The notes below the pieces were generated by a model. It was not told the origin of the DNA, made no database searches, and saw only the letters and a program-made list of their open reading frames with translations. Both the position numbers and the translations under genes were made by a program. 64,000 nt of DNA from Cymodocea nodosa (Eukaryota > Streptophyta > Magnoliopsida > Alismatales > Cymodoceaceae), in contig CM072342.1 of the NCBI GenBank assembly GCA_036874045.1, forward strand, positions 5,354,501-5,418,500, in the 5' to 3' direction. Positions 2,849 to 59,959 of this stretch are shown piece by piece; the first letter of the stretch is position 1, and the number at the start of each line of letters is the position of its first letter.

Positions 2849-3498
2849 AGTGCAGTAACTAGCTAATGGTGTTTGGCTAGTTACTAAAAAAGCTCATCCT
2901 GTGGCACATCTAGATAGTAAGTGATGAACTCATGGTAATTGACCCATGTTGCCTCCTCTTCAGAATATCCGTGTCGCTATATGAGTAGTTGTGGAAATGG
3001 GCACCCCTCAATGTTGATAAGGTAACGTTGTTAGATTTTTGTGGGTTGTAATTCTTCAGTAGCCAACATTGGCAATGGCTCAATTGTTTTTGGAGGATGA
3101 TTGAGCTAGTGGTGTTGCTTCAATTGTGACACATGAAAAACAAGGTGAAGCTTGGCGTTGGTTGGGAGCTAGAGTTTGTAGGCAACTTCACCTATCTTTT
3201 GAATGATGGAGTATGACCCAAAGAACTTTGGCTGCGATTTTGGAGTCTCTTTGTGCATTGAGGTCTATTGATAAGGATGAAATTTGAGGTAGACCTTGTC
3301 CCCCACATTAAAGGATTTTTCTCTATGATGTTGATCCTTTAATTGTTTCATTTGATTCTATGCCTTAAGGAGATGCTCCCGTAACATTTGTAGGACAAAA
3401 TCTCTATTTTGATTTGCATTGCGACCTCCATGTGGCACACTATTCCTAGTACATAAGAGAGGACTATGGGAGGTGGTGTTCCATAGAGGGCTTCATAT

Positions 3499-3957
3499 TT
3501 TTTAAAAAAACTTCTTTTTTTCTCTCCAAGAGTATCGATGAAGATGATAACATATGAGTCTCAATGGACACTCAAAGGTATATACCAGGAGTATCTAAAG
3601 ACGTGAAAGCTTGTAGGAGGTCTTGTTAGACCCCAACATAGTAGATTTCTCCAAGAATCGCGTATTTTATCTCGTAGAGATTCCCAAATAGTTGGAGGTA
3701 CCCTAAGTGGCCCCATCCACCAACTTGATTGAAATTATTGACTGAGGCAAGGCCCGCAATGTTGGCATGTGAATTGGGTAAATGGTGCACACACCTACAA
3801 CTTACTAACGCTTGAGTAGAGCTAACACTACTACTCATAGGCATTACACGAGAACTTCTCAGATGGTCACCCATCCTGGTTCTACTCTCACCCAAACATA
3901 GTTAACTTTAGATTTCTTACAGGAATGGGCGCTTGATAGTAGGTGTAAATGCACCTC
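3499..3957 (-). mobile_element. 5S-rRNA-headed SINE-like retroposon
   Basis: Read on the minus strand, the insertion opens with GAGGTGC at 3957-3951 and then follows plant 5S rRNA from its first bases for about 115 nt without an obvious gap. It then has an unrelated body of about 340 nt and ends in an A-rich tail (about 3499-3520). A 16-bp direct repeat with one mismatch flanks it (3483-3498 and 3958-3973). These are the marks of target-primed retroposition: a defined 5' end, a tail and a long target duplication. It splits the chromovirus fragment. What is known: 5S-derived SINEs (SINE3) occur in animals, and Cassandra LTR elements in plants carry a 5S segment. Here the 5S start coincides with the element edge, which fits a SINE or a retroposed pol III transcript better than an LTR. 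The comparison uses 5S sequence from memory. Confidence 0.65.
3865..3907 (-). promoter_or_regulatory. 5S-type internal pol III promoter (A box to C box)
   Basis: Within the 5S-like head, the A-box region AGTTAACTATGTTTGGGT (3907-3890) and the C-box AGGATGGGTGACC (3877-3865) match the 5S rRNA internal control region in order and spacing. The C box matches the plant 5S consensus exactly. It would be the promoter of the SINE-like unit. Activity is not shown. Confidence 0.6.
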
Positions 3958-4084
3958 ATAAAGGGCTTCATATGGGGTGAACTTTGTGGAGCAGTAGTGT
4001 TGTATGAATATTTCGTCCATGGTAGCCACATGTTTGGTTAGTTTGATTTTGCTAAAGATACAAAGTAATTCCTGAGCAAGACTT

Positions 4085-6180
4085 AAATTAATTAAATTTA
4101 TTTGTTTATTTTACTATAAGTGCACAACATCTGTTGTAAAAAAGTGCAAGTATAGGTCGAACCATAGAGAGTAATTAAAATTAGTTTTTAGATTACTTTT
4201 AGTTAGTGACAATGTTTTAATATTAAGTCTCTCACTTCATTGAGTTATTACTTAACTTAATAGATAAGTTTGTAGAATTAAGCTCACTATAATTGTTTAC
4301 ACTTAAATTTAGCTAACCATTGGACGATCTCAAAGAATGTAAACAACTTTATACTTTATGATTGTTACTTATCTTAGATTTAACAATAAATAGATTTAGC
4401 ATCTAAATGATCTTAAATAACAATCAGTCAAGACACAATTTTTGAGATTAAAACTAACTAGTTTCAAAATAAAGTCATATAGTTTCATACTGAAATGAAA
4501 AGTAAATATACAACATTTGACAATCATGAGTAAATAATTCAAACACAAACAATACATAAACAAAATATAGTATATATATAAATATAAACATTAATGTTAA
4601 TATTCCTTAAGGTGGATGATAGATGAATGACAATGTTCTCTATTGAAAATCAACAACCTCCAACCCTATATGTGACATAGTTATATCTTTGATAAATTAA
4701 TTACTTACTATCAAACACTCCTCTCCCTATAAGATTACGAACCTAAACTTTTGTAAGGTAATCTCCCCTTTGGCAAATTGACATCAATTCGACACTAAGG
4801 CTAAAAGCTTTGGTCCTATTGAGAGATGATTCGGTGCTTGATGAAGAAACATTCCCTTCCTGTGATGCAATCACTCCTCTATAGTAATTGTCAATCATTG
4901 CGATTTAATTATAATCGACTTGACTTTGGAAATATCTCCACAAACCTTCAATGAATGGACGATGGTAGTAGGAGGATATCTCAAGGAACATCTGATGTTT
5001 TCTATAGTGAAGCTCTCTCTCCCCCTTTCTCTCGATTTCTTTCGATCTTTTTATATTTCTTTTCACTAACAACTATTGGTGCCAAAAATGAATGGTTGGA
5101 TTTTTCTTTCTTGTGCATCAATGGTTGTAATCTCTTCTTCATTCCACGATAATGATCATGAGTGTGAATCATGCAATGTGGGTTTTCGATACAATTCCTG
5201 TAACTACTCATAATCCCATATTAAATAAAATAACTAGTTCGTAGAGTTAACATAACTCAATAGACTAATTCTGTTGGATTAATCCCTAACTCAATAGATT
5301 AGCTTTGTTAAGTTATGCAATAACTTAACAAACTCAGTTTGGTCCTACAATTTAGTAGAATAAACATATAATAAAACAAATTATGAAAATAACACGTGTA
5401 CTACATAGGTGTAAACAATATTTAATAATATTTTTAAGATTTAGATGCTCTAATTAATCTCTTAGTGCTAGAAAAACAAATCCAAGTGCTCATAAACTTA
5501 AGACATACACTACATTCAAAAGTTAGAATTACATATCGATTATAACATTCCTTTTCTTGCTTTGAATATACTTGATTTTGATAGACAAATGAAGTTGAAT
5601 CAGTTGTCCCTCTCCATACTCGCTTATGAGTGTTGCACTTCTTTTTGTACTATTGATATTCTAATTATGAAGCTTTGCATTTCTTTTATAATGTTCTTCC
5701 ATGTTGTGAACACACTCACATCATGATAACGTGCACTATGAACATGTATTGTGATTCTTAAGTTAATGAGTACGTACGACGAACATTTATTTCATTTCCT
5801 TAATAACCCTTAAATTCACGAAGTCATGCGTGTGAAGAAAAGATAACTATTTAGATAACTCCATGAACTAACTTTGTTGAGTTAAAGATTAACTCAACAG
5901 AGTGACTTTGACACTCAAATATTAACTTAATGAATTAACGTCATTGAGTTAATAGATAACTCAATGGACTAGCTTAATGCTTCTAAACCATAACTCTATA
6001 GACTTAATTGAGTTAATAGATAACTAAACAAACTAACTTCATTGAGTTAATAAATAACTCAATGAACCTACATAAGTTTATTTTTACTTGCTTTATGGAG
6101 TTACCGTATAACTCAACGAACTAACTTTGTTGAGTTAACACTTAGGCATTTTCTAGAATCTTATTATTTTTCATATTAAC
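4085..6180 (-). mobile_element. Athila/Tat-like LTR retroelement relic (LTR part joined to leader part)
   Basis: About 4090-5400 is related to the LTR at 54135-55977: both have the GCAAGTAYAGGTCGA block, then the run of sites around the ATCACTCCTC block. About 5440-6180 is instead related to the leader at 59960-60560. In the larger element these two parts lie over 4 kb apart with gag between them, so this copy is an internally shortened derivative or a recombinant. It holds many TAACTCAA/TTGAGTTA palindromic half-sites. It is an old, eroded fossil with no coding capacity. Confidence 0.55.
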
Positions 6181-8054: not shown

Positions 8055-10663
8055 ACCTGGTATTAGAGTGAAGCGATTTGGTGAACTAGAGAATGGTAGT
8101 GACTAACGAGCTTCACTTGGTGGAGCTAATGCAGAGGTTAGAAGGAAGACTTCCAAGCATCAAAGGGATAGGATCCCGACTATCAACTATGGAGAAGAAA
8201 TTGGATTCGTTAAGGCATGGGTCGAATGTTTACACGGAACAACAAGGAATGGGAGAAAGGGAGATGTTAGAAAGCTCAAGTTGAGGAAATCAAAGGACTC
8301 TAGGGCTACCTTACCTCGATTTTCCAACATTTGATGGAACTTTAGATGTAGAGGAATGGTGCCAAACCACAACCCAATTATTAGCCTTTTACCAAATTGA
8401 TATAGAGTAGTGGGTGATGGTGGTAGTGATCAACTTGTAGGGTAGTGCGTAGAAATGGTTTCAAGGGTTCAATGTGGAATAGGAGATTCGATCTTGGGGA
8501 GAGTTTGCGAAAGTCATTATCATGCAGTTCGATGAGGACCCTACCATCAACTACGAGGAAGAGATGTTCAAGCTGCAACAAGAGACTACAGTGGTGGAAT
8601 ACCTAAATAGATTCAACGATTTGTCAACTCGAGCTCCCAAAATGTCGAAACACACAAGGGTAGCAGCCTTTTTGGCCAAGTTAAGGGATAACATTAGGGT
8701 GGAGGTGAAAGGTACCCAACCATCAATAATGACCATGGTGATTTCACTAGCGAAGATACAAGAATCGTGGTGTGAAGCACATGCTAAGATTTGGGGATGG
8801 CCAAAGAATTGGAAGTTGAGGACCATGACTAGATGAACACTTCCAAGGAAAGAGACAAGACAAGGAACACAATCCACCATTCTAAGCCAAAAACTTGGGG
8901 AGTAAGCCAAAAAGACAAGACTATGGAAGGTTAATTGGCTTTCACTAAAGGAGGAATAGTGGTGATGCAAACTAGGGCTATGTTATTAGTGCGATGAGAA
9001 ATTCTCTCACAACCAAAAGTGTAAGAATAAGCGCATATTTGAAGGAGTGGGAAGTAGTGGACCTAGAAAATCCAAGGATCTCAATACACATGTTGATAGG
9101 AGAGACTCAACTCGAGACAATTTGGCTAAAAGGGCAATGTGTCGGTTCAATGATAATAGTACTATTGGATCTAGATAGTGCTTACAATTTCGTAAGCTTG
9201 AATTTTGCAAAAAGAAGTACATTGAAGGCAGACCCTTAAAAGGGTCTAAGAGTCATGTTGGCATCTGGGGGGTACACCAAGTGTGATAAAATTATTATCG
9301 AGTTACAAATGAAGGTGGAAGGAGTTGGTATAGTGCTTAATGTATATGTAGTACCAATTATTGGAAGCAACTTGATCATTGGAGTCTAGTGGCTAAGACC
9401 ATGCGATAAGGTAATGAATTTTCAAAATATGAATTGCAAATTCAAATTGAATGGGAAGAAAATTAGGTGGTAGGGAAGGTCAGTGGATGACTTGCAATGG
9501 GTAGAGGCCAACAATTTAATGAAGAAAAAGAGTATTGCTTATATGGCATTGGTGTGTGTAACAAAAGAAGAAATAGAAGGAAGGCATCACCAAGAATATC
9601 GAAGTGAGATTTCAACACTACTATAGAAATTCAAAACTCTATTTGATGAATCCAAGGGATCACTTGTACAAAGGTCTGTCACCCATAGAATTGAGCTAAA
9701 AGACCTGATGAAAGTAGTGGAAATGAAGTACTATAGGTACACCTACTTCCAAAAGAATGAGATCAAAAAATAGATCAAAGAATATATAGCAAACCAGTAG
9801 GTATGACCAAGCACCAATCCATTTTCATCACCTATTATATTGATAAAGAAAAAGACAATAGTTGGAGGATGTGTGTAGATTATACGATGTTAAACAAAAA
9901 TACCATTAAGAATAAATATCCAATGCCAATCATCGTCAACTTATTAGACGAATTGGGGCAAGCGAAATGGTTATTTAAGGTTGACCTTAGGGTAGGATAT
10001 CACTAGATAAACATGGTAGAAAATGATATATAAAAAATAGCATTTTGAACTCATGATGGCCATTATGAGTTCACTATTATACCTTTTGGGCTCCACAACG
10101 CCCCAACAACATTTCAGGCAATTATGAATGATCTTTTTAGGCCATATCTGAGAAGGTTTATTTTAGTATTCTTTGATGATATTTTGATTTACAGTCTTAG
10201 CTTTGAAACCCACCTAGAACATTTAGAAAATGCATTGGAAATTCTAGTGAATAACAAACTATATGCAAAAAAATCTAAGTGCTTATTTGTCACTCAAATA
10301 GTAGGGTATCTAGGACACGTTATTGGACCTAAGGGTCTATCCATGGAGGAGAAAAAGATAAGGGTAGTTGTGGAGCATCCTATTCCAATGAATGTAAAAG
10401 ACCTGAGAGGATTCTTGAGCCTATCCAAATATTATAGAAGGTTCATAAAGAATTATGGAAAATTAGTTCAACCTTTGAATGAAGCATTAAAGAAACAAGG
10501 ATCCAAGTGGAATGATAAGATGCAGTTAACTTTTGAGGAGTTGAAGGCAACATCAAATGTTTCATTGGCATGGGTTAATGGTACCTTCAACTTCTCAAAA
10601 GCTGACTGCATTTCACCATTTCACTTGAATCCTTGTTTTTTTAATACTTCATTTAGAGGTTGA
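8055..10663 (+). mobile_element. Ty3/gypsy element: gag, protease and RT relic
   Basis: After the primer-binding site at 8058 comes a gag-like region (about 8090-8840, with TTVVEYLNRFNDL), then a protease-like region (about 9060-9470, VLLDLDSAYNFVS), and a reverse transcriptase (about 9800-10480) with WRMCVDYTMLNKNTIKNKYPMP and the catalytic FDDILIYS. It stops near the start of RNase H at about 10530-10660. Integrase does not follow; the only nearby integrase lies on the other side of the LTR. It is a fossil with many breaks. Confidence 0.8.
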
Positions 10664-11381
10664 ACTAATTTTCCATAATTCTTTATGAACCTTTTGTATT
10701 ATTTGAATAGGCCCAAAAATCCTCTTAGGTATTTCACATTCATTGGAATAGGCCACTCCATTACCCTTTTCTATCGCATCCCCAACCTTGCAAATCTGTG
10801 ATGGGTTGAAATCTATTTTTTTAGTAAAATATGAATGACATTCCATGGTTGTGGGTTGTTCCTAATATTTTCTTCCTAACTATCAACCAATCATCTAAGG
10901 GGGGATTGGGAAAATAGGAGAGCTTGTTATTAGGGGGAGCTCCTCACTTGAAGGAGTTGCTCAATGAAAGGGGATTTTGGGAACTACAAATGAATAAGCT
11001 GAGATCATCACTTCAACAGATCATGATAGGGAGGAAGGGGCAAACCCTAAAGCTCGAAGGAATGATGATTTGCTTTTAGGATGGGTGGCAATCTATGGGA
11101 CAACAAAAAATGGGTCTTCGAATGAGCAAGCGACAAGCCTTTGAGCAATTGAGATGCAAACTCAGAGAGGGTTTTCGAGAGGCTTGCAGTTAACCTTCAA
11201 ACGATTAAGGTCAAGAAAGTTAACAAGGTGAAGGAAAGTGAATGTTACATAAGATAGAAAGTGTAACTTTTATTTTCTTGATTTTCACCAACTTTCTTTC
11301 TCACACTTTCATGTGCACAAATCAAAGTGAAAGAAAAGAAACATCAAAAAGAAAAATAAGACCTTAGTTGGGAGATACTAC
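10664..11381. other. No identifiable gene
   Basis: The stretch joins the retroelement to the broken oxidoreductase copy. A 65-codon minus-strand frame (10649-10846) contains IFGPIQIIQKVHKELWKI but matches no family I can name. From about 11230 to 11381 the DNA resembles the 3' flank seen downstream of the other oxidoreductase copies. Confidence 0.4.
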
Positions 11382-11986
11382 TTATCCACCATAGGGACAA
11401 TTGAACAACCTTTTTTCTCAATGGAAATAATCACTACATCAAGAACCAACTGGATTTTCCTACTGATGGTTGGCTATCTCTTATCAGGGATGTTTGTAAC
11501 AAGCCTAGAGAACTCTCCCACCATGCAAACCTCTTGAGGAAGATCTATATTGACAACATGTTTGCTAAGCATTGACTCCCAACTTGTCAATTTCTCTTTC
11601 AATCCAACATTGGAAGCAAAGGAGAAAGAAGCACAACTCTCTTCAAATGGAAGAATGAAATCTATCAGGTGTAGAGTTCCTCTTGTTCTTGTGACACACA
11701 AGTCCATTTTCACATAATCGAAGAATGAGCAATGGAAAGTTGTTGTTCTTCCACCTTCCCATATCTAAGAGGAACCACATGACAATATGACCCCTGCATC
11801 GTTAGTAACAGGATTTGGAAATGTTGTCACCACCTTTGGCAACTCAAAATCAGTAGCTCATAGAATTGACCTAATGCAATACCAACCAACATCACCAAGA
11901 GCCCCAAGAGAATCAAGATCTAGCTTTACATGAATGTCATTATTAAGAAAATTTGAATCTCTCGGAAGTGAAAATGTGTTGTGTAC
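11382..11986 (-). pseudogene. Copy C exon 2
   Basis: The exon follows a TTTTGTAG acceptor and reads VHNTF, then DLDSLGALGDVGWYCIRSI before the first stop. The tail keeps LPQEVCMVGEFSRLVTNI, followed by a deletion relative to copies A and B. The aligned stop is TAA at 11384-11382. Confidence 0.85.
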
Positions 11987-13499
11987 CTACAAAACAATAT
12001 GCTAAAATATATCTTGGATTACAGTACAAGAACACCTACTGTGTTAACTAAAGACATTGTCTATGTGAGATACAAACTAGGATAATCACGTTGTTACATA
12101 AACATGGTGGATATAAAAAAGAGAAGAATTTAGTAATTGAGTTGAGATCAACAATTGAGTTATCAAGTTGACTGAGTCCAATATCAGCATGGTCTGTTAA
12201 GTAATCATCCAAAAAAAATGATAATTATTGGAGTCCATCCATGTGAATGAAATGCTTGATCTACTAAGTCAAATTAAAAAAGTGACCAATAGAATAGTTG
12301 ATGATCCATTTTGTCAACATTTAGAAAATAACATACTATTGACCACATTAACCAATTTTATAAATCTTCAAGATAAAAAGATATATTCCATCCATGAGTA
12401 GCTCTATTTTAGCCTAAAATTGAAACAACTATAATTTTCTAATTTTTTATATTGATTATATTTTTTCTATACTCAAACCCAATATTTATGTCCTCATAAA
12501 CCTTATAAAAGTGCAATTGAAATGCTCCACCTACTTATTTCAAAGTTCCATAAAAAGCATATTAGAGAAACAAGGATTTATCATTATCTATTTGTCCAAA
12601 AAGACTGGCACAAGTATTTGGAATTTTTCATTATTATCCTAGTATTCATGTTCATGATGTGTGATGTGGATAGGTAATATTTCAAATAATGTTATACTAG
12701 AAGTATATTATCATCCAGAGAAAGAAGAATATTATTCATCACATGCAATGCATCAATCACGTTTAGGGACAGTACCTAAGAATGCAAATCACCATAGTTG
12801 TCCTATATTTTCATATTTTTCTAAAGAGGTCATTTTTCCTAAAGATGGCTCTAGGAAGCTTTCCTTGAGATGTCTATGTATCCTTTCATAGATATATCAG
12901 AGGTTACAAGTAAATATATGGATTTTAAGATTAAATGATTATAAAAATATGGTAAACATTTTATTTGAATTGAACAAGTATTGATTCTTGATCAAAATGC
13001 CTTAAAATTGACCAATTTTTGTTAAATTTCAACCATTGAATTTTAAATAAAAAATCTTAATGAATATAACTTAGATTATGTTAAAATTATAACTGATAAA
13101 AAGCTTAATGAATATAACTTAGGTTATGTTAAAATTGTAATTGATTGTGTACAACATAATTATTTTTCATAGTTTGCAAATACAATTCAAAATTGATTAA
13201 GTAATTTAAGCCTACACTAATAACAACAACAATCAGAGCCATAATTTCACTATGTGTCAACCACATGAATTCTTTTATTTCAAGTATTTTTCTAATTTGA
13301 TTAAGTAATTTAATTCTACAATGACAACAATTTGTGTTATAATCCCATTACATAAGGTTAGCCACATGAATTTACATTCCATATACTCAATTTTTAACTT
13401 AATCTAAATCCTTTGAACTCTAAAATATCTCTCTATAATTTTAATTAAGAACTAATTCTTCATTTACTTACATCAACTAAAACTATTATTAGCTAATAG

Positions 13500-14230
13500 C
13501 ATAGACTAAGTTATTTCTCCTTAAATTTCCTTGGTTATTTTATTCATAACCAAAACAAACAAATATAAACTTAGAGAAGACCATTGCTATAAATTTACGT
13601 TTGATTGACATTTTCTAATTCCTCTTCATATAATTTTAACAATAGTAACTACTCTTCCATACATATCTTTTACGATATCAATATATCTAATGGATACTTT
13701 TTTTTGATAATAAGTTTCTATGTATTCAATCATAAGTTTTTTCTAAATCAATGAAAACTATATAAAGGTTTTTTTCCCTAAAATTTTCTATTAGTTGTTT
13801 AAGTAAATAAATAGTTTTTATTATTGGCCTACCTAGCATAAACCCATATTAACTTTCTATGATTTTACTTACATGCCTTAGTTTTTACCCAATTAACTTT
13901 TTGCATAATTTTATAGTATAACTTAGTAACTTAATACCATGATAATTATTACAATTTTGAATGTTTCCCTTATTCTTAAATATAGATATTAAAGAACTCT
14001 TTCTCCAATCATCTAACATCTTCTTTGTCTTTAAAATTATATTAAAAAGATTCATTAACCACTTAATCCCTACTTCACACATACACTTCCATACTTCAAT
14101 ATGAATACCATCTAATTTAATAGTTTTTTAATGACTTCTTCCACTTTCAAATTACTAATTCTTCTAAAATATCTATTGTTTATATTCTTTATACTGTTAC
14201 CCAAATCTTATATGTAAGAGTTTCCTAGGA
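13500..14230 (-). mobile_element. RTE-clade LINE reverse transcriptase relic in copy C intron
   Basis: Minus-strand frames give LDDWRKSSLISIFKNKGNIQ and NCNNYHGIKLLSYT, the fingerprint of plant RTE-type LINEs, and further down shifted remnants of the YEKAYDRVPR and GLHQGSxLSPYLF regions. Many stops and frame changes show it is long dead. The same relic is recognisable in copy A's intron, so it was there before those two genes separated. Confidence 0.7.
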
Positions 14231-15017
14231 TTGATTCATCAAAAAGTTTACCAAGATACAGACACGATATATTTTTCATTTCACTAAAACTTTATCTTTC
14301 TGTCTTTAATAAACATGACTTAGATATCTAAATTATCCTTCTCTAGCTTTAGCTAATTTATATATTCTATTTTTACTTTAGAAACGAAGCCCTTAGTTTT
14401 ATAGAAATTAAAAAGATTTTAAACACTACAGAAACATCTGTCATCTTTAGAAATACACATACTTCGACAGTGTGGAACAGAAAGATAGAGATTACCATCC
14501 TGAGTTATCCAAAACGAGTGGCATCAGACAAGATCTCCTTCATCTTGGCCGTCCTTGGATGATGCATCCACATGGTCCCATCCATGAACTGAACACCGTG
14601 CTTGTCGAACGCCTCGACAATCTTATCAAAATCCTCCACACACAGAGCAACCGGCTTCTCCAGCAGCAAGTGCTTCTTCCTCTCTGCGGCGGCAACCGCC
14701 CACTTGACGTGAAGGCTGGTGGGGAGGGGCATGTACACGACCTCGACGGAAGGGTCATCTAGCAGCTCCTCGTAGCTGCCGTGGACCCTGACGGACTCCG
14801 GGAGGCAGTTATCGGCCTTGAAGCGCTGGGCTTTCTCGATCGAGCGGCTGGCGATGGCAACTAGAGCAGCGTTTGGGGTGAGCTCGATGGCTCAGGCGAG
14901 CTTCCAGGCAATCTCGGCGCAACCCATGATACCGAACTTGACAAGGGTTTCCACCATTGCGCCCTCTTTTCCCTTCCTCTCCTTCCCACCGTCGTCTCTC
15001 TTTCTGTGTGGTTGACG

Positions 15018-15448
15018 GCGGTGGCCGCTCAACTGCCGCGTTATAACATGATTAATTTAGATCGACCAATCGAGTCATCGATCACCTGTTCCGTCATGAG
15101 TTATAATCACGAAAGGTCCCCTCAATGGATAAACCTAGACCGTTCATTGATAGATGGATGAATAGATTTGGTTGCAACGTGCATAAAAAAGAAGAAGAAG
15201 TAAATATATGAAACATAAAAGTGTGTCTAGCTTTAGAGAATCTCTTCAGATATTATTGTAATTAATTAAATAATAATAATTTATGATATAATTTATTCTA
15301 CATTAAAATTTCAATTTAAGTTGTGTTTTATTTATTATATATATTATTTTTCAATAGAGCAAATTCCACAGTCATGCATGCTTAATAAATGTTCTAAGTG
15401 AAAGGAAAGAAATTTCATGGAGGAAGAACAAGACCTCGGGTGCGAGAT
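15018..15448. other. Spacer between copy C and copy B
   Basis: This is the 5' flank of copy C and the 3' flank of copy B, 491 bp from start codon to stop codon. The part just below 15448 resembles the DNA downstream of copy A. A GTTATAAC near 15040 could be a TATA-like element for copy C, but support is weak. I see no other gene. Confidence 0.5.
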
Positions 15449-16075
15449 CTACTCATCCGCCACAGGGACAGTCGAACAACCCTTTTTCTCGATGGAAATC
15501 TTCACTGCATCAAGAACCAGCTGAGTTTTCCTACTGATGGTTGGCCATTTCTTCTCAGGTATCCCAGCACCATTCTTGATGTTTGTAACAAGCCTAGAGA
15601 ATTCTCCCACCATGTAGGCCTCCTGAGGAAGATCCAACTTGACATGATGTTTGCTAGGCAGTGGCTCCCAACCAGTGTGTAGCTCTGTAAATCCTACATC
15701 AGTACCAAAGGAGAAAGCAGTAGAACTCTCTTCAAACGGGATAACGAAATCTCCCAGGTGCAAAGTTCCTCTTGTTCCTGTGACGCACAGCTCCATTGTC
15801 ATGTGATCGATGAATGAGCAATGGAAAGTTGCCAATCTTCCATCTTCCCATATCAGAGAGGAACCACATGACAGTATGACCCCCGCATCATTAGTAACAG
15901 TATTTGGAAATGCTGTCACTGCTTTCGGCAACTCAAAATCAGCAGCCCACAGAATCGACCTAATGCAATACCAACCAGTATCACCTAGTGCCCCAAGAGA
16001 ATCAAGATCTGGCTTCACACGAATGTTATTTTTAAGAAAATCTGAATCTGCTGCAAATGAAAACATGCTGCGTAC
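15449..16075 (-). CDS. Copy B exon 2
   Basis: The exon follows a TTTTGCAG acceptor (intron AG at 16077-16076) and begins V-R-S-M-F-S-F. It ends ...VPVADE with TGA. Its 627-bp length and in-phase junction (phase 0) match copy A exactly. The residues K175, D186 and W189 of the family are kept. Confidence 0.88.
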   Translation of the reverse strand, partial: VRSMFSFAADSDFLKNNIRVKPDLDSLGALGDTGWYCIRSILWAADFELPKAVTAFPNTVTNDAGVILSCGSSLIWEDGRLATFHCSFIDHMTMELCVTGTRGTLHLGDFVIPFEESSTAFSFGTDVGFTELHTGWEPLPSKHHVKLDLPQEAYMVGEFSRLVTNIKNGAGIPEKKWPTISRKTQLVLDAVKISIEKKGCSTVPVADE

Positions 16076-19000
16076 CTGCAAAACCATATGAGAAATTACA
16101 TCTTGGATTACAATGATCTACAATTACAGTTCAAGGTCATCTACTATATAGCAACTGTTATCTAACTGAATGCAGGGCCTGTGGGTGAGACAAACCAGGA
16201 TAAACACAAAGTTAGACATGTCGGACATAAAAAAGAGAAGAATTCAGTAATTGTAATTTAAAAGATCAGCAAATGAGTTATCAAGTTAGCTGAGCTCAAT
16301 ATCAGGGTGGTCCATCAAGTAATGATCTAGAAAGAGTGATCATTACTAGAGTCTGTCCATGAGAATGAAATGTTTGATCTACTACGTCAAACTAAAAACG
16401 CCACCAATAGAAAAGTCGATGATCCACTTTGTCAAAATTTAGAAAATAGCATACTACTGATCACATTAACCAGTTTTATAAATCTTCAAGATAAAAATAT
16501 ATATTCCGTTTATGAGTAGCTCTATTTCAGACTAAAACTGAAACAACCGTAATAATCTAATTTTTTATATCGATTATATTTTGTCTATACTCGAACCCAA
16601 TACTTATTTCCTCATAAACCTTATAAAAATGCAATTGTAATGTTCTAGCGGCTTCCTTCAAAGTTCCATAATTACTGATATTCAGACAAGAATATCTACC
16701 ACCAAATTAACGACTCTTGTGAAACCTATCTCATTGTTTAATCAATTTTGACCAATCAACCCATCTATCCGATCATCTTGTGGTTATATTTAGGTGTTTT
16801 CTGATCACCTTGGCCCAATCCACGCCTTCTTGTCAATTAAACAAGAATTCATCTAGGCATATTTTTATTTTTCCTAACCTTCATAAGTAGTCTTTCCCTT
16901 AACACATGACTTCTGTTATATTTGATTCCCCCCTAGATGTGTTCCCGAGGAACGAATAAGTTTAGGAAACCTAGTTCCAAACCAATCTGAGGTTTGTTAT
17001 GGTCAGATCTGTCCACCACTTAGGCTTTCTTCTCTCATTTTGCCTACATTTAGCACTTACCTTTATGTTTATATTTCCATTGTTGTGCTTAAACTCACAT
17101 GTTGAAATGTTCATTTACACCCTTACTTGCAGTACATGAGTATATGTTTGTTGATATTGCATTGTCATGCCATTTATATGCTCATGCATCATCTTTGCAT
17201 TTTCTTTTATTCTAAATCAGGGAAAGGTAAGTAAAGGAGAGTGCATGCATCATGAGTGTATTGCTTTAATCTAAATTAAAGTTAAGGTAAGTGAGGTAAG
17301 TACATACATCATGTACAGTATGCTAGGGTCATCATGGGAAAATCTTTTATTTCCGTTAAACTCATGCATTTCACATGTCATGCATCATGTTTATTTAGAT
17401 AATGTGTTCTTATATATGATTTATTTGTTTGTTTTGGGTTCTCACCTATTAAGATTAGACCCGTTTAGTCTAGACTCATTTAAGGTTCATTTCCACTAAA
17501 CACATAAGTGTGAATGTATTATATAACTATTCTTTTAAGCTTCTTGTTTCTTTCTTCTATTATGAGCCTAAAGGCCCATTTGTTGTTGAGCTCAGTCCAA
17601 CCCCTCTTATACTTCCTATTTTATATTTACGTGTACTTGCATCTACACACCTAGCACTTATTAGACCACCTAAAAGGTCTACCATTGGTTGGGCGTATAA
17701 GGTGTTTAACACTTTTCTTATGCATACCTAGAAAACTTACTTGGACGCTTTGGTTAAGTTAGCTAATATTATCCCCACTAGAGCATAAATATCACTTTGT
17801 ATGTATTTTGATGAATCATTTAGGATTTTCCTAGTTTTTTCCTAAATAGACTAAGTGACAACTCCAAGACAATCACTCATTTCCTATCCCTCTTAGTCAA
17901 GACTGCTTGAGTAGAAATGGCGTGAGAGATAAGAAAGCTCACAAGGGTGGATGTGCATCGAGTCAGCCCACTTTGTCGACAACAATGTCACAACTATGTT
18001 ATTTCTAATTAGATGAGTGATTATTTAGGTTATTAGATATCTATATAATTAGTGTGACATATGTAGACATGCAGTTGGGTTAAGCCAACATGATCTAGCA
18101 TGATTTAACCATGCTATTAATTAACACAACCCAATTTTTTGAATCATGTCAACTACTATGTTGGAAGATTGGGTCATACATACAGGTTGGCACAACTCAA
18201 TTTGTTTGAGTCAACCATTATCATGGTCATGGGTTAGTAGGCAAGCCATTTTGTTGGGAAAAAAATTATCATCAACACATACCCAAGACGTAAACCTGCA
18301 ACTTATGAGTTGTGAAGGTGCTTTTAAACTAGTAGAGCATGATATGAATAATGCCTAGACATGAAATGAATCGTGTCGAGCTAACATAACACGACCCATT
18401 AACAACTCTGGACATACAACACCATTGATTTTATGATCCCATTAACTCCTAAATTGGAATCAAAAGCAATGTTAGAGAAGATAAGAGAGGGAAACCCTAG
18501 AGATCTCCACCAATGCATCACCCCATACAACCTCATGCTGGTTGCCTAGGAGAGAAACCCAAAATCTCCACCAACGCATCACCCCATACAACCTCATACT
18601 AGCCGTCTTAGACCTTACCAATAACCAAGCCACCCCCATCCACCTTCAGCCTTTTCCCATCCTTCTTCAAGCTGATGCTTCATGTCTTTAATATTATAAT
18701 CCATAATGTGGACTATGACAATATTAAACAATAAAAATGGATCTATTTAGTCAACATTGTCAAATAAAAGGCATAAATAAGAGTATATATCAAACATATA
18801 GAACAAATAACACCATGCCTTCAGTATTCCCAACCATTGATTTCAGCTAAGAGGCTCTATAAACCTTGCTTTGACCATATACCCTTCAAGTTGGGAAGTG
18901 CTTGGTATGGGAATGGTGGAACACACTTGGTCTAAGCAGGTGGAGGGAATGCTTTTAGAAGGTTTGCTTCTAAGTCTAAATGGTCAAAACATCAAACAGT

Positions 19001-21609
19001 GAAATGGAAATCTCAACTCAAATCTAAACACAGTTTATACAAAGAAAGTTGCCTTGAAACTGTTCAACTAATTGATAAAAAAGAAGTGCATTTCTCCCTA
19101 TCAAGTGAGGAAAAAGAAAAGAGGTAGAAAATAAAAGTGAATTAGGTTCTCTCATGGAGTATGAAGAACCATTTTAGTGTCATGATCAAAGGAACTCTAG
19201 CTGAAGCTTGGAGATACCAATACCTCTCATTTTCACAAGTGCACAAGTAATAGACTAAGAATTAATAGCATCTCTTGCATGCAAATTCAAGACTCATATT
19301 TTGATGGCTCTATGGTCCATCAAATATTGCAGATCACTTCAAAAATTTATTTGCACCCCCCCACACCCCCCTAGAAGATCTCACTAGTGTTTATTATAGC
19401 TTGTCTGCTGTTTCAAAAGAAGATAGATTCAAGCTGATTGAATCCTTTTCAAGAGAGGACATTAAAAAAACTTATGCGGCAATTAGCAAGGTAGAAGAGT
19501 CCTAACTCCAGACAGCTTCCCTGTGGCTTTCTTCAACAGTTTTTTTGACTATCAGTAATGATCTATTAACAACTTTAGGAGAATGAGTTTTGGGAGGAAA
19601 ACTTGAGGTATGACTATATCAACAATTTGTTTGTTGTTCTCATTCCCAAGGTTTTTAGGGTGGAAGAAATTTCTCAATTCAAGCTCATCAACTTAATGAA
19701 CTCAATGAAGATAATCACCAAGTTACAGTTTCAAGTCATGGATTAATTCCTTTAACTTGTCCAAACAGCTTTCATGAAGAATAGAAGCTTCTTGGACGGG
19801 TTCATCACAACACAAGAAGCTTTGAAGAACTATCATAGCAAGGGGAAGTCTGGGGTGGTATGTAAAATTGATTTCAAGAAGGTCTTCAAAAATCTAGTTG
19901 AAATTTCTCGCCTAAAGTTCTTTGGTTGTGTAAATGTCCATATAAGTGCATTGGTTAGGTGAAAATTGTGCTTTGTATGGCTTCTGTGTCTGTTCTAATA
20001 AACGGCATTGCACCTTGTTCGGGAACCCATGGAGTGCCAAAGATCCTACTATAGCTTGCAATCTTCCTTCATTATGTTTGGAAACTAAGGTGTAGAATAA
20101 TTTTCCCACAATTAAGGCTGTGCTTGTTTGACACTGTTTTTAACTTCAACTTGTGACAAGGGATAGGAACAGTAATTTAAAAAGAAAAAAACACATTTGA
20201 TCCTAAACTTGGAGCTGAAGCAGTGTGATAACTTTTAACACTAACGTAAATTATTTTCTTCCCTCGTTCAAGTACAACTTTTTCCCATACCTAAACCCAA
20301 GAGTCGCTTTAAACTTGCATATATTTTAATGTATAATGATAATTAATTATGTAATAATAATAATATATAATTATAATTAATGATAATAATAAATAAATTT
20401 TATCAAATTAAAGTTATTTATAATTATTATACATACATTACTGCTCTAATAAATAAACACCACTTCTGAACCTCTACTCTTCTTTACTAAAATTGTTAAG
20501 AATCAAGTATAACTATAGTGTCACTTTTCAATAGATAAGTAGATCACTTCAAATTTGAGGATGTATACTAATTAATGTGGTACTTGCATAGTTGGATGTT
20601 CATGTAAGATTGATTATCTATCAAAATAATCTTGCGTTTTCAAATTGTGCTTCTTTTGTATCACTAAAAATTCAAAATCAATGAATCTCCTTTCCAAAAA
20701 AAAAAGTATTATACATTTTTCACTAGTGTATTTATCTTCATAAATAATCAAATCAGTTACAGTTTTAGAAATCTATGATTTCAATTTTCAAAAAAAGTAT
20801 TATAATGGAGTAAAATGGCGAACCTATAAATCATGATTTTACTCAAAAGTGAGGTTTTATAAAACAGAATTACACGGGTCCCTTCCTGATGAAAATTATA
20901 CTATCGAAATTCTCTCTACATCATTCTCGTTCACTAGCAGTCACTTTTTTAGAACAATTTTTTACATATAATTAAATAAAAAGATTTTAGATTAAAAATC
21001 ATGGTTGGAAACTTCAATAGATACGAAACGACATTTAGTTGCTATTATTTTTAAATAAAATAAAAAATCAAACACTGCGGAAACATCCGTCGTCTTTAGT
21101 AATACACATAATACTTGAACAGTGTGGAACAGAAAGATGGAGATTACCGCCTTGAGCTTTCCAAAACGTGAGGCATCGGACAAGACCTCCTCCATCATGG
21201 CCGTCCTTGGGTGATGCATGCCCATGGTCCCGTCCATGAACTGAACGCCGTTCTTGTCGCACGCCTCGACGATCTTATCAAAATCCTCCACACACAGAGC
21301 AACCGGCTTCTCCAGCAGCAAGTGCTTCTTCCTCTCTGCGGCGGCAACCGCCCACTTGACGTGAAGGCTGGTGGGGAGGGGCATGTACACGACCTCGACG
21401 GAAGGGTCATCTAGCAGCTCCTCGTAGCTGCCGTGGACCCTGACGGACTCCGGGAGGCAGTTATCGGCCTTGAAGCGCTGGGCTTTCTCGATCGAGCGAC
21501 TGGCGATGGCAACGAGAGTAGCGTTCTGGGCGAGCCGGATGGCCCGGGAGTTCTTCCGGGCAATCCTGGCGCAACCCATGATACCGAACTGAACGGGGTT
21601 TTCCACCAT
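15449..21609 (-). CDS. Gfo/Idh/MocA family oxidoreductase, copy B
   Basis: A two-exon gene: exon 1 21609-21148 (154 codons), intron 21147-16076 (GT...AG, about 5.1 kb), exon 2 16075-15449 (208 codons plus stop), 362 residues in all, the usual family size. The N-terminal Rossmann part has the dinucleotide-binding GIMGCARIA and the EKP motif at residues 100-102 that holds the nicotinamide. Exon 2 has RVKPDLDSLGALGDTGWY, the family's substrate-domain signature. The family resembles plant At4g09670; it is a predicted NAD(P)-dependent oxidoreductase, probably cytosolic (no signal peptide), substrate unknown. Odd: residue 130 is Gly where copies A and C and the Arabidopsis protein have Trp (GTMG for GTMW). 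The intron holds an L1 relic and LTR-like debris. No stop breaks the exons, so it may be active. Confidence 0.88.
16880..17865 (+). repeat. LTR-like retroelement remnant in copy B intron
   Basis: The stretch has the look of a plant Ty3/gypsy LTR: a GGTTGGGCGTATAAGGTGTT block near 17685 and an AAGTGACAACTCCAAG block at about 17850, which recalls the TGGCGACTCC primer-site region of Tat-type elements. No coding part is attached. It is a fossil; limits and family are tentative. Confidence 0.35.
17866..18840. repeat. Non-coding repeats in copy B intron
   Basis: About 18050-18410 carries AACACGACCC-type words common in dispersed plant repeats. A roughly 64-bp tandem duplication sits at about 18486-18611, each unit with CATCACCCCATACAACCTCA. 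I see no gene. Confidence 0.45.
18840..20000 (+). mobile_element. L1-type LINE reverse transcriptase relic in copy B intron
   Basis: Plus-strand frames show the RT region around NRSFLDGFITTQEAL and KGKSGVVCKIDFKKVF (19774-19910), which matches the blocks before and at the first catalytic Asp of L1 LINE RTs. Upstream, degraded frames give TPDSFPVAFFN, the DGFPxxFF block. It is truncated and full of stops, and lies opposite to the host gene. Confidence 0.7.
20001..21147. other. Remaining copy B intron near the donor
   Basis: AT-rich DNA with runs such as AATAATAATAATA at about 20340-20400. The last 120 bp next to exon 1 match the equivalent intron ends of copies A and C. No coding sequence is evident. 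Confidence 0.5.
21148..21609 (-). CDS. Copy B exon 1
   Basis: It opens at ATG 21609-21607 and ends GCG just before the donor GTAATC at 21147. It is GC-rich, unlike its surroundings. The tract 21272-21498 is identical to copy C 14620-14846 over 227 bp. Confidence 0.88.
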
Positions 21610-21624
21610 TGCGCTCTCTTCCCC

Positions 21625-21662
21625 TCCTCTCCTCTCCTCTCCTCTCCTCTCTCTCTCCCTCT
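21625..21662 (-). repeat. CT/GA-rich microsatellite in copy B 5' leader
   Basis: A CCTCT pentamer repeated about six times, then CT repeats, lies 16-53 bp upstream of the copy B start codon. The A and C leaders are pyrimidine-rich here too but lack the regular pentamer. GA/CT runs are common in plant 5' leaders. Confidence 0.7.
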
Positions 21663-21842
21663 GTCTGTATGGTTATGGCGGTAGCCACTCACTCACTGCT
21701 TCGCTTATCTTTTTCCTTTTCTTCGCCACGAGTTTTTTTGCGGTAGATATCATCTTACGTCCACCAAACAATCATTTCCAAGTCTATCGGGAGTCACAAC
21801 CATGGACGCTCCCCTCAACGGTTAAGATGGGACGTGGGACCC

Positions 21843-30032: not shown

Positions 30033-31792
30033 TGTTTAGAATAAAAAAATGCATAATATTAATGGTTAATTACATAATATTTAGTTTATCATATGAAAAT
30101 TAAGCTATTATGTTACAAATATATGATTACATGTCTTAATTACAGAATATGCAGAATTTCAAAGAATTAGCGTTAATTAAGTATTAAAAACTTGAAAGCC
30201 TAGTATGTGTAGTTTTATATAAGTTTACGAAAGCTTGTAAAGTTACTAAGGTAAGTTTACGGAACCTCGTAAAGTTAGGAATTATTTCACACATTAATTT
30301 TTTAAATGATTAAGAATTACTTTTTTTACATATCAAGTATTAAATGTTATATGAATATGTACTTGTTTTACTAAATTACAGAACTGAACAAGTCCATTGA
30401 GTTAAGCTTAACTCAATAAGGTTAGTCTGTTAAGTTAAGAGTTAAGTCAATATAGTAAGTTTGTTGAGTTACACTAAATCCACGGACTAGTTATTTTCTA
30501 ATATTCAACTATAAGCAGTTGTAGGAAAAGGAAATTTGAAGGAAACTACGTCGCATAAACCATGCCATGATCTAAATCATGGACAGAAGAAGTAATCACT
30601 AATGTTGATACAAAGGAAAAAGATTCAACCAATCATGCAAAAGTAGTTATTACTAAAAGAAATATAAAAGGAAAAGAGAAAGAACGAAGAAGTGGATAGA
30701 GAACTGTGTTAGTAAACGTTGGACGTTCCTTGAATTTACACCATAACCACTAATCACCAACTATCAGAAGTCTGTGAGGATACTTTCTAGATGTCGAGTC
30801 GATTTCAAGCCAAACACGGTGATTGACAATCACTGTGAGGAGTGATCACATTGTAAGAAAGAATGTCATTTTCACTAAGCACCAAATCATCTCTCAGGAG
30901 ACAATAAAGCTTCTAGCCTTGGTTTCAAGTTGATGCCGCTATACTGAAGAGAAGATCAACTTATAAAAGTCTCGATTCGTAATTTTATAGGGAGAGGAGC
31001 ACGTGACAATAAGTGATTAAGTTTTCAATGATGCAACTATGTCGCATGTAATAATGAAAGTTCTTACTATCAATAGAGAATTTTACCTTTCACTTTTCAT
31101 TCATCTTCAGGAACATATTACAACAAAAACTCATTATCTGTTTTTATATTTACCAAATCTGTGTTGTATCGTTTATTTTGTATATTCATTATTGTTAGTA
31201 TTGTAAATATTGTTGAATGTTTTATGTTTATTTCATTCTAGAAAATAGAAAATCGTATTACTGATTATTGAAACCAGTTCGTGTTCAATTCTAAAATCCT
31301 GATTTATATATTTACTATTTGAAATATCTGAATATTAATGCTAATTAATGATAAATATCGTATAAACTAACATTAAAAGCTTAATTGATGTTGTTTACAT
31401 TCTGTGAAACCACCTAATGGTTGGTCGTATTCCTTTGTGTACAATAATTTTAATTTGAAGTTACTAGTAAAGCTCATTAAGTTAACTTAACTCCACGAAG
31501 ATAGTTGTTGAGATAACTGTAACTTAATGAACTAAGTCTATTGAGTTAGTAGTAATTCAACGGAGTGAGTAATTCAAAACACAAAAACATTTGGTTGTAA
31601 AAATTTAAATAGTCTGAAATTTTTACTCATTCTCTATGAGATCAACCTGTATTTGCATATTTATGCAATAAATACTATGCACTTGTAGTTAATTACAAAT
31701 TGAATTTAATATCTTATTCGTAAAAATTATTTGTTTACCTCTAAAAGAAAATATAAACATATATTTAATTAAACATCAACAAACCAAGCATG
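30033..31792 (+). mobile_element. Solo LTR, Athila/Tat-like family, with 5-bp target duplication
   Basis: A 1760-bp LTR starts TGTTTAGAAT and ends ...CAAGCA. TGCAC flanks it on both sides (30028-30032 and 31793-31797), the 5-bp target duplication of an LTR element. The sequence is the plus-strand counterpart of the LTR at 54135-55977. No internal region remains, so it is a solo LTR left by recombination between two LTRs. Many differences from the other copy suggest considerable age. Confidence 0.85.
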
Positions 31793-36380: not shown

Positions 36381-37075
36381 ACACACATGTATGCACATAT
36401 TACACACCAGTGTGCGTCAATTTGATCACTAGTAGTAGAAACTAGAGAAGGTAGAACATCTGAAAGAATGTGCACTATGTCATGGTCAACCAACACAGCA
36501 ACCTCATTAATGAAGTTCAATTTTAGTATAGAAGTCCTAATGTCCATCCACTCTGACAAGATAGTAACCTCATTGTCAACAATCCCACCCTTCACGAGTA
36601 TACAAATCATATTATGCTTGTTTACCACTGTAAACTTTAATATGGTACTGAAAAGGATCCATACGGTCTTCAATATGTAACTTTTACATATCTTTTCATA
36701 CGGTGTTGAGTATTTCAGTCTCCTTTCCTTGCAACAAACTAAACATGACTGATATATATGCTCCTATTCAGAAATGCTAAAGATACAATATATTAACACG
36801 CAAACAACATATGCATGGATTATTAGATACCAACAATATCATTTATTTTCATAAACTAAAGATGTGCAAAGCTGAATTACTTGAAAACTCTTGAAACATA
36901 TCACTTCGATGCATTAAAATGTCTACTTTTTTGCATTAGCGTCCTATTGGAGTTATCAAGTATAAAGCGCCAAATGAGCAAATTCTGCAGTCATGCTTAA
37001 ATGTCAATGAAAAAAAAGAGTAAGAGGAAAGAAAAGAAATTTGAAGAAGGAAAAACAAGACCTTGGGTGCGAGAT
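36381..37075. other. 3' flank of copy A, no gene seen
   Basis: Two antisense short frames near 36370-36680 do not resemble a known family. The last 120 bp next to 37076 match the region downstream of copy B. No canonical AATAAA is obvious in that part. Confidence 0.4.
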
Positions 37076-37702
37076 CTACTTATCCTCCACATGAACAGTT
37101 GAAAAGCCCTTTTCCTTAATGGAAATCATCACTGCATCAAGAACCAACTGGGTTTTCCTACTGATGGTTGGCCATTTCTTCTCAGGCATAGCAGCACCAT
37201 CCCTGATGTTTGTAACAAGCCTAGAGAACTCTCCCACCATGCAGACCTCCTGAGGAAGATCCGTGTTGGCAACATGTTTGCTAGGCATTGGCTCCCAACC
37301 TGTCAATTTCTCTTTAAATCCAACATTGGAAGCAAAGGAGAAAGAAGCACAACTCTCTTCAAACGGAAGAATGAAATCTGTCAGGTGTAGAGTTCCTCTT
37401 GTTCCTGTGACACACAAGTCCATCGTCACGTGACCGAAGAATGAGCAATGGAAAGTTGCCGCTCTTCCATCTTCCCATATCAGAGAGGAACCACACGACA
37501 GTAAGACCCCCGCATCGTTAGTAACAGGATTTGGAAATGCTGTCACCGCCTTTGGCAACTCAAAATCAGTAGTCCACAGAATCGACCTAATGCAATACCA
37601 GCCAAGATCACCAAGAGCCCCAAGAGAATCAAGATCTGGCTTTACACGAATGCCATTGTTGAGAAAATGTGAATCTCCCGGAAGTGAAAATGTGCTGTGT
37701 AC
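37076..37702 (-). CDS. Copy A exon 2
   Basis: It follows a TTTTGCAG acceptor (37705-37703) and begins VHSTFSLPGD. It ends ...STVHVEDK with a TAA stop. It carries the C-terminal alpha/beta domain and the LPQEVCMVGEFSRLV helix of the family. Confidence 0.92.
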   Translation of the reverse strand, partial: VHSTFSLPGDSHFLNNGIRVKPDLDSLGALGDLGWYCIRSILWTTDFELPKAVTAFPNPVTNDAGVLLSCGSSLIWEDGRAATFHCSFFGHVTMDLCVTGTRGTLHLTDFILPFEESCASFSFASNVGFKEKLTGWEPMPSKHVANTDLPQEVCMVGEFSRLVTNIRDGAAMPEKKWPTISRKTQLVLDAVMISIKEKGFSTVHVEDK

Positions 37703-40700
37703 CTGCAAAACAATATGCTAAAATGCATTAGTATAAGGTCACCAACTGTGTTAACTGAATACATTATCTGTGTGAGAGACAAACCAGGATAATCACATAG
37801 TTACATAGTCATGACAAACATCAAAAAGAGAAGAATTTAGTAATTGAGTTTAGATCAGCAAACGAGTTATCAAGTTGACTGCGCCCAATATCAAGGTGGT
37901 CCGTCAAGTAATCATCTAGAAAAAATGATTATTACTGAAGTCTGCCCTGACTGTCCATGTGAATGAAATGTTTGATCTACTACGTCAAATTTAAAAGGCG
38001 ACCTACAGAATAGAAGATGATCCACTTTGTCAAAATTTAGAAAATGACATACTACTGATCACATTAACCAGTTTTATAAATCTTCTAAGATAAAAGATAT
38101 ATTCGGTCCATGAGTGGTTATTCTGAAATGTAACAAGTACTGAATCTGAAACATTGGTTATAAGCCAGATTACTACCGAATACATCTTTCTATCTGAGCT
38201 GTCATTTTCTAGATTTATGCTGAAGTAGAGTTGCTTCAGATTCAAGATAAAAAGATATATTCTGTAATAATCTGGTAATATTCCGATTTATGCTCTACTT
38301 CAGCATAAATCTGAAACAACTGTAATATTCTTATTTTTGATATTGGTTATATTTTTTCTATAATTGAACCCAATGCTTATTTCTCACAGACCTTATAAAA
38401 GTGCTACTGATTAGAGAACGAATTATCAGTATAACTGATAAGAAACCTTATAGAAATGTTCCAGCCGCTTCTTTCAAGTTTCACAAAAAACCAAATTAGA
38501 GAACCAAAGATTTATCATTATCTATTTGTCCAAAAAGACTGGCACAAGTATTTGGAGTTTTCATTATTTTCCTAGTACTCATGTTCATGATGTGTGACGT
38601 GCACAGGCAATATTTCAAATAATGTTGTTATACTGGAAATATATTATCAACCAGAAAACGAAGAATATTATTCATCACATGCAATGCATGCATCAATCAC
38701 GTTCAGGGACGGTATCTTAGAATGCAAATCACCATAGTTGTCCTACATTTTCATATTTTTCTAAAGAGGTTATTTTTCCTAAAGATGCCTTTAGAAACTT
38801 TCCTTGAGATGGTTCCATATCCTTTCTTAAATGACGGAGGACCGCCACATGAGCTTATCGACGAAGGCGACGTCCCCACTCCACACAGCATGATGCATGC
38901 AGAGGGAGCGGAAACGCCATCCGAAGAGGAAGAGGAAGCTGAACGGACACTCTTTATTTATCGCCAAGGATCTGCTCGTCTGCACCTCCGAAGGGTTGTC
39001 TCACCACGATCACTCCAAAAATTAATTAACGTTAATGCACCCCTCCACGCATGACCAAGCACCCTTTTTATACTTACACATACATCCTATCATTTCATTG
39101 TGCGATCAACCTTATTTTTTCTTGTTGACATTATTGTGTCTTTGCTTGCTGGATTTCAAGTCTCTTTGCCGGTGGATTCCAATGACGCCTTGGTAAATTT
39201 CAGGGTGATTACATCATGCAGTCCGTGGATTCTGACATAATCATCTATAATATATATCATCTTTTCATCATCTATATACCTCTTCTTCCATCTTCTAACA
39301 TTCTACTTCATCAATAAATATGAGAGTGCACAAGAAATTTTATGGATTTTAAGATTAAATGATTATATAGAAATATGGTGAAAATTTTATGGTAAAGTAT
39401 TGACTCTTTATCAAATTGCCTTAAAATTGACCGATTTTTGTTAAATTTCAACCTTTGAATTTTAAATTAAAAATCTTAATCGATATAACTTAGATTAAGT
39501 TAAAATTATAATAGATAATAGAGTATACAATAGATTAACTAATTCTATAATTAGTTTTTATGTTTTTTAAAAGATAATTATGAAATAAGAGGTACCTCTA
39601 GGAAAGCTTCAACTCTATGAATACCTTTCGATTTTTTAAACAGAAAAACTTCCAATCATTATATCAGTTAATGTGTAAAACAACATAATTACTTATTTTG
39701 CAAATACAATTCAAAATTAATGATATAAGTAATTTAAGCCTACAATGAATAACAATAGAGTCATAATTTCATTATGTGTGTCAGTCACGTGAATTCTTTT
39801 GTTTCAATTTGTGTCGTAATTCCACCGTGCAAGGTCAACCGCAAGAATCTGTCTTCCGTATATCTCTCTGTAATCTTGATTAACAATTAATTCTTGATTT
39901 ACTTACATCAACTAAAACTGTCATCAGCAAATAACACAGATTAAAGTATTTTTTCTTAAATTTTCTTGGTTATTTCATCCATGATCAAAACGAACAGATA
40001 TAAACTTAGAGAAGATTGATGCTATAAATTTATGTCTAATTGACATTTTCTAATTTCTTTTCATATAATTTTAATACTAGTAATTACTTTTTCATATATA
40101 TCTTTTATGATATAGTAAGTTTTTTTTTAACCAATGAAAACTACATGGTGATCTTTTTTCTCTAAAATTTCCTATTAGTTATTTAAGTAAACAAATAGTT
40201 TCCATTTTGGCTTAGTTGGCATAAACCTATGTTAAATTTCTATGATTTTAGTTATATGCCTTAGGGGAGGTTTGTTTCAATCAGAATTCTTAGAAAAGGA
40301 ATTCCGATCGACATACTTGTTTGCACTAACCAAAATTCAAGGAAAGGAATTTTTATCTTTTCTTTCTATAAAATTGCATCAATCCTGTCTTTCCTTTTTC
40401 TTTTCGACCTTCACCCTTGAGAAACTCTTTCCACTAAATGCACAACAACATAAAAACCTAGTAATTAGTCTTTACTTAATTACCTTTTCACATAATTTTA
40501 CAGTATAACTTACTTGTTAACTTAATATCACGGTAATTATATTAAAAAGATTTGTTAATCTCTACTTCATCTATAGACTTTCATACTTCAATATGAATAC
40601 CATCTGATTTAATAAATTTTTCAAATTCATTTTCTTAATGACTTCTTCTACTTTCAAACAACTAATTCTTCCAAAATAATTACTATATCATATATTTTTC

Positions 40701-40913
40701 ATTTCATTTTCTTTTCCTAAAACTCCATCTTATCTTCTTTGTCTTTGACACACATGACTTAGATATCTAAATTTTCCTTCTCTAGTTTAGCTAATTTATA
40801 TACACTATGTTTGTTTTTAGAAACGGAGCCCTTGGTTCTATAGAAATTTAAATAATAAAAAAAACACTAGAGAAACGTCAGTCATCTTTAGATATTTAAG
40901 TACTTGGACAGTG

Positions 40914-40967
<54 letters not shown>

Positions 40968-41430: not shown

Positions 41431-42026
41431 TGCGCTCGCTTTCCCCCTCTGATCTCCTTCCCCCAGTCGACTCTCCCTCTTTCTGTGTGCCTAATAGCAG
41501 TGGCCGCTCACCGCTAACTACTTCGTTTATTTATTCGTTGTTCCGTCCACTTCTGACACGAGTTTGCGTATTGAGTTCTGTTGATAACATTATTTTAGAT
41601 CGACTGACCTTAGTCTCAATTTGTTTGCAATAACTCTCACAGCTTTCAACACAAACTCTCGCACAAAGAATTTAAAGTTAGGTTAAAAAATCCATTAGAT
41701 TATGTTAGACGTGTTATGTTTATCATTCACTTTATTATAAAAAATAAAATATTAGATTAAATGCAGCTCAAAATTTAAAACATCATCACTGTATTAAAAA
41801 AAAGCCGACAAGGATATATTCCATCAGCGTTATAAAAAAAAAAAGGGGATATATTCCATCCTAGTCTCGTCGACCGTGTGGAAACGAAGCCAGCACTCAC
41901 AGGCAACTGACGTGGCAAACACTTGTAAGAGCTCCTCCTCCATTGATTCCTTGCCCACAAGCATCTATTTGTGTTCTGTCGTAGTTATCGGAGAGTTGCA
42001 GCAGTGGTAGGAGGAGGAAGTTAAAG
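41431..42026. promoter_or_regulatory. Shared intergenic region between copy A and the sHSP pseudogene
   Basis: 596 bp separate two divergent start codons, so the promoters of both genes must lie here. Upstream of copy A an AATAAATAAA word (about 41527-41537) could act as a TATA-like box. I looked for paired GAA/TTC heat-shock elements in front of the sHSP and found no clear set. Support for any single site is weak. Confidence 0.4.
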
Positions 42027-59946: not shown

Positions 59947-59959
59947 TGAAAATTCCTAG

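Follow-up and report, generated by a model that had tools for sequence, protein, structure and literature searches.

Within an old, decayed Ty3/gypsy retrotransposon, the 64-kb window (the whole stretch of DNA that was analysed) carries an insertion of 458 nt on the minus strand, from 3956 to 3499. Read in that direction, it comprises a full-length head derived from 5S rRNA, in which the A box, the IE and the C box lie (3836–3956), a body of 325 nt (3511–3835), a run of seven T (T7, 3504–3510) and, as read from the junction sequence, a tail of five to six A (3498–3503). It is enclosed by two 17-nt direct repeats that differ at one position, one at the 5S (5′) end (3957–3973), inside a frame that we read as gypsy integrase, and one at the tail (3′) end (3482–3498), which shares position 3498 with the tail. 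The first base of the head directly abuts the copy at 3957–3973. An earlier note on this DNA had described 16-bp flanking repeats with one mismatch, and this was borne out, their length being 16 or 17 nt according to how the one A common to repeat and tail is counted.

These flanking repeats are the only pair starting in 3001–4500 that lies 100–1000 nt apart and is identical at 16 or more of 17 positions; the whole window holds 130 such pairs among 57,154,034, mostly clustered elsewhere. When the element and one repeat copy were removed, a minus-strand frame read STKFTPYEALYGTPPP across the junction (STKFTPYEALY joined to GTPPP), which we read as part of a Ty3/gypsy integrase. An uninterrupted reading is found at 61515 (minus strand), at the presumed matching place of a gypsy frame, and the sole difference between the repeats falls, as we read it, in a Leu codon, where it is silent. 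The downstream flank, which was the target of the insertion (3172–3480, minus strand), belongs to the integrase C-terminal region of a decayed pol: its piece 3172–3264 scores 29.7 bits against Pfam SH3_Tf2-1, whose cut-off is 30 (E 7e-7), and stops and a frame change follow downstream of the junction. Pfam gave no match for the flank piece 3268–3357 or for the fragment 61315–61731, so the gypsy label of these two is our own reading. Because omitting the insert restores an integrase-like frame, we conclude that the sequence is an insertion with a target-site duplication.

The head (3956–3836) aligns with positions 1–120 of the 120-position Rfam model RF00001 at 31.3 bits, short of the gathering score of 38 (E-value of 0.00025 in 901 bases and 0.017 over the whole window). 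This full-length match agrees with the proposal that the insertion begins at the first bases of 5S rRNA, with the correction that the 5S part starts at 3956 rather than 3957. Against an assumed plant 5S sequence, 83 of 120 positions were identical and the alignment score was 86, far above that of 500 shuffles (mean −33, sd 9.7, maximum −2). An assumed human 5S sequence gave 70/120 identities and a score of 18, and the difference between the two scores, both obtained with assumed references, relates the head to plant-type 5S. The label 'plant' is based on this 5S type together with the overall appearance of the window. Even its weakest part, the first 45 nt (26/45 identical), was equalled at one of 127,910 ungapped positions on both strands, which is the element itself.

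The A and C boxes are in place, as had been claimed: measured against the published Cassandra patterns (PMC7215508; this and the other papers are cited from parts of their text), box C fits exactly, box A has one mismatch, and the two lie 18 nt apart. With the reference and the box limits assumed, the promoter boxes of the head keep 32 of 39 sites against 51 of 81 elsewhere (Fisher p 0.037). CpG sites, also judged against the assumed plant 5S, were kept at 5 of 12 positions versus 78 of 108 other sites. The fold predicted for the 5S part does not stand out from those of shuffled sequences (z −1.16, 22/200 as good), and that of the entire stretch 3505–3956 is modest (z −2.24, 1/100 as good).

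Counted from the 5S start, the first 446 nt are free of TTTT; the first such run is T7 (3510–3504), a probable Pol III terminator and the sole run of at least four T in the 458-nt element. In this AT-rich window, segments of 446 nt lacking TTTT numbered 69 of 1272 on the minus strand and 44 of 1272 on the plus strand, and a first TTTT lay 441–452 nt downstream of 264 of 63,300 minus-strand starts and 214 of 63,300 plus-strand starts. Markov simulations were free of TTTT in 1.1% of cases with the composition of the window and in 18% with that of the element, which leaves the position of the run as the main argument for a terminator. The A-rich tail that had been described is present as A5–6, but the element ends in T7 followed by this short tail and not in a plain A-rich tract; a run of seven A (3515–3521), within the body, ends 4 nt before T7.

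Beyond the 5S part, Rfam gave nothing in 3300–4200 up to an E-value of 1, and the body, like the element as a whole, has no second copy within the 64-kb window. A blastn search with 3483–3973 found no match among plasmids or among phages. In viral contigs, a plant-5S DNA pattern and one body pattern each had 0 matches. A 16-base body pattern occurred in nine viral contigs and was taken as chance, BLAST of the element giving only a 16–18-nt seed in all nine.

Other features of the window were recorded alongside the element. No Rfam match reached its gathering score anywhere in the window. Besides the 5S head, four matches were obtained up to an E-value of 5: three weak ones and a snoR71-like stretch (59375–59481, plus strand; 36 bits, gathering score 40), whose E-value of 0.0015 over the window is better than that of the 5S head and which overlaps the end of a gag-like frame (59443–59955, minus strand). 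A dispersed repeat of about 1 kb is present at 4315–5378, 30345–31774 and 54156–55185, with copies 67–69% alike; one of them adjoins the 5S element. At 10356–10772, a palindrome-like foldback aligns along its whole length with its own reverse complement, at about 82%, and overlaps a reverse transcriptase frame (10049–10663, plus strand). Repeated exon-like blocks, 74–87% alike, occupy 11322–21718 and 37027–41539. They seem to represent several tandem copies, or remnants, of a gene for an oxidoreductase, since the block at 20992–21672 (minus strand), the sole one scanned, matches Pfam GFO_IDH_MocA.

The anatomy of the insertion makes it very probable that it arose by retroposition of a Pol III transcript. 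The likeliest explanation, which we hold with moderate confidence, is a retroposon of the SINE type whose head derives from 5S rRNA and whose target was the decayed Ty3/gypsy element. In such a retroposon, the internal 5S boxes would be recognised and would set the start of Pol III at base 1 of the 5S part; the enzyme would then read through the body, which has no run of four T at which transcription would stop, until it terminated at T7. The RNA would then gain a short A-tail and be inserted by a LINE, most probably one from the L1 clade, through target-primed reverse transcription, an event of the kind that leaves the 16–17 bp duplication seen here. Among the LINEs of flowering plants the L1 clade is the predominant one, and its members presumably recognise poly(A), according to the part of PMC3747384 covered. 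In the window, no LINE with the same 3′ end as the element was found. At a distance of 1.4 kb, at 1588–2064 on the minus strand, lies a reverse transcriptase fragment that resembles plant LINEs; its match to Pfam RVT_1 (E 2.8e-5) stays under the cut-off. The cut site, read on the plus strand, is CTTCATAT/GGGG. L1 target sites are T-rich, and the site here differs from them; this difference counts against the SINE reading, as do the Rfam score below gathering, the single copy in the window, the shortness of the A-tail, the unremarkable fold of the 5S part and the lack of a LINE with a shared 3′ end. The SINE architecture that the earlier note had proposed is supported by its start at 5S +1, its boxes, the lack of T4 before the end, the A-tail, the 16–17 bp duplication and the restored empty site, with the restriction that one copy represents it.

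Several other origins were weighed. A DNA transposon, a MITE or an unrelated rearrangement that carried a 5S pseudogene by chance has nothing specific in its favour, and the long duplication, the restored frame, junctions that coincide with the A-tail and with 5S +1, and the lack of terminal inverted repeats (the longest match between the element ends is 4 nt) make it highly improbable. A Cassandra element or solo LTR would account for the 5S-like sequence and for its boxes, A with one mismatch and C, which lie 18 nt apart as published. Cassandra target duplications, however, are about 5 bp long, the figure also given in the earlier note, against 16–17 bp here, and the element has no TG...CA ends; the two signs of Cassandra that the earlier note had named are therefore both missing at this copy. 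The 5S part is moreover terminal here, a position that it never takes in Cassandra LTRs according to the text of PMC10853983 covered, and we give this origin practically no weight. The earlier note had also offered a Pol III transcript of Cassandra that a LINE had mobilised. Cassandra transcription begins in the 5S of the 5′ LTR (PMC10886601), and a retroposed Cassandra RNA would likewise start at or near 5S +1. The element lacks the Met primer-binding site TGGTATCAGAGC (best match with 5 of 12 mismatches, shuffles averaging 4.1), a copy of its 18-nt head at the tail (best in the rest of the element 8/18 mismatches, shuffles averaging 7.5) and an LTR-like internal repeat (half-against-half score 21; shuffles, mean 17.4, maximum 27). 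The mobilised transcript is on these grounds, which concern the sequence of the element itself, disfavoured and appears very unlikely.

The main rival to a plant SINE with a 5S head is a one-off retroposed chimera, in which a variant 5S rRNA gene or pseudogene was read through into spacer or adjoining DNA and the transcript was inserted once by a LINE. It predicts the same anatomy (5S +1 start, T-run end, A-tail and duplication), and the lack of a second copy in 64 kb is consistent with it. What tells against it is the age of the 5S divergence relative to that of the insertion. The 5S part differs from the assumed plant 5S reference at 37 of 120 sites and the repeats differ at 1 of 17, a disparity that favours an already diverged family of 5S-headed SINEs over a fresh 5S transcript. 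Had the divergence of the 5S part built up after insertion, the probability of at most 1 of 16 repeat positions differing at that per-site rate would be 0.022 if one copy drifted and 0.00014 if both did. The non-CpG rate gives 0.039 and 0.0005, and the promoter-box rate 0.19 and 0.016. The comparison is weakened by these milder rates, which raise the probabilities, and by the repeats having no CpG while the CpG sites of the 5S part decayed; it is also biased in that repeats are recognisable only when little diverged, and it depends on an assumed 5S reference and assumed box limits.

Since the repeats differ far less than the 5S part and the boxes are better kept, we conclude, with moderate confidence, that the source had probably already diverged from 5S while it was using the promoter. 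A source of this kind, diverging from 5S with its promoter kept, would probably be a propagating family. A fresh read-through should resemble cellular 5S, and the 5S part was probably well diverged when inserted; a diverged 5S pseudogene is nevertheless a possible one-off source, and the milder age comparisons are compatible with a single event. We accordingly hold the one-off chimera to be distinctly less probable than not, though well ahead of the Cassandra readings. That the element, of which the window has one copy, belongs to an amplified family of 5S-headed SINEs seems more likely than not, given a divergence that appears older than the insertion.

One review, in the part covered, describes plant SINEs as tRNA-derived, and a partner LINE is known for few plant SINEs (PMC3747384). 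Animals have SINEs with a 5S head (PMC10886601, PMC3747384), and there the use of the 5S promoter by SINEs is also named as known (PMC10853983), and 5S-related SINEs have been reported from Aspergillus (PMC5063351). In the tabulated rows of PMC3747384 that were covered, the 5S-headed entries are from vertebrates, and the plant entries give tail and LINE partner. No plant 5S SINE was found among the literature matches listed, which consist of titles and abstract openings and include few subscription papers.

A tRNA-derived SINE was considered for the present element and rejected. Such SINEs may carry a 3′ Angio-domain of 37 bp, though not all plant SINEs do. With assumed patterns, a B box is absent (best site with 4 of 11 mismatches, shuffles averaging 3.2). 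The assumed tRNA A-box pattern is matched with 1 mismatch at element position 235, which lies in the body and not in the head, and ARAGORN found 0 tRNA genes in the window.

Two proposals exist for the origin of the Cassandra 5S module: insertion of a SINE3 into an LTR (PMC10886601) and proximity to 5S arrays (PMC10853983). In the present element, 5S sequence can be recognised from base 1 onwards and extends past the core of roughly 70 bp common to Cassandras. We consider it possible, but unlikely, that the element represents a plant lineage of 5S-headed SINEs that arose independently of Cassandra and belongs to the type from which Cassandra is supposed to have received its 5S module through insertion into an LTR. 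A plant 5S SINE would be the donor type for the SINE3-into-LTR proposal and would make that proposal testable; if the element is a one-off, it is a modest curiosity.

Compared with known systems, the element shares with tRNA-derived plant SINEs such as Au, p-SINE and TS (PMC3747384 and PMC9033089) a short, non-coding build, a Pol III head, a tail ending in T or A and, probably, mobilisation by a LINE, but it has a 5S head and no tRNA-type B box. With the Cassandra TRIM, a plant retrotransposon whose LTRs contain 5S, it has in common a plant 5S-derived Pol III promoter with boxes A and C 18 nt apart; it differs in the lack of LTRs and of a primer-binding site, in the terminal position of the 5S part and in the 16–17 bp duplication. 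The SINE3 and other 5S-headed SINEs likewise combine a 5S head at the first base of the element with an internal Pol III promoter, an unrelated body and a LINE-type insertion signature. Judged from its sequence, the element would also resemble them in its predicted promoter boxes, which are kept, in having no premature terminator, in its T-run/A-tail end and in a duplication longer than 5 bp. It is set apart from them by a plant-type 5S, a body without a match and an end of T7 followed by A5–6.
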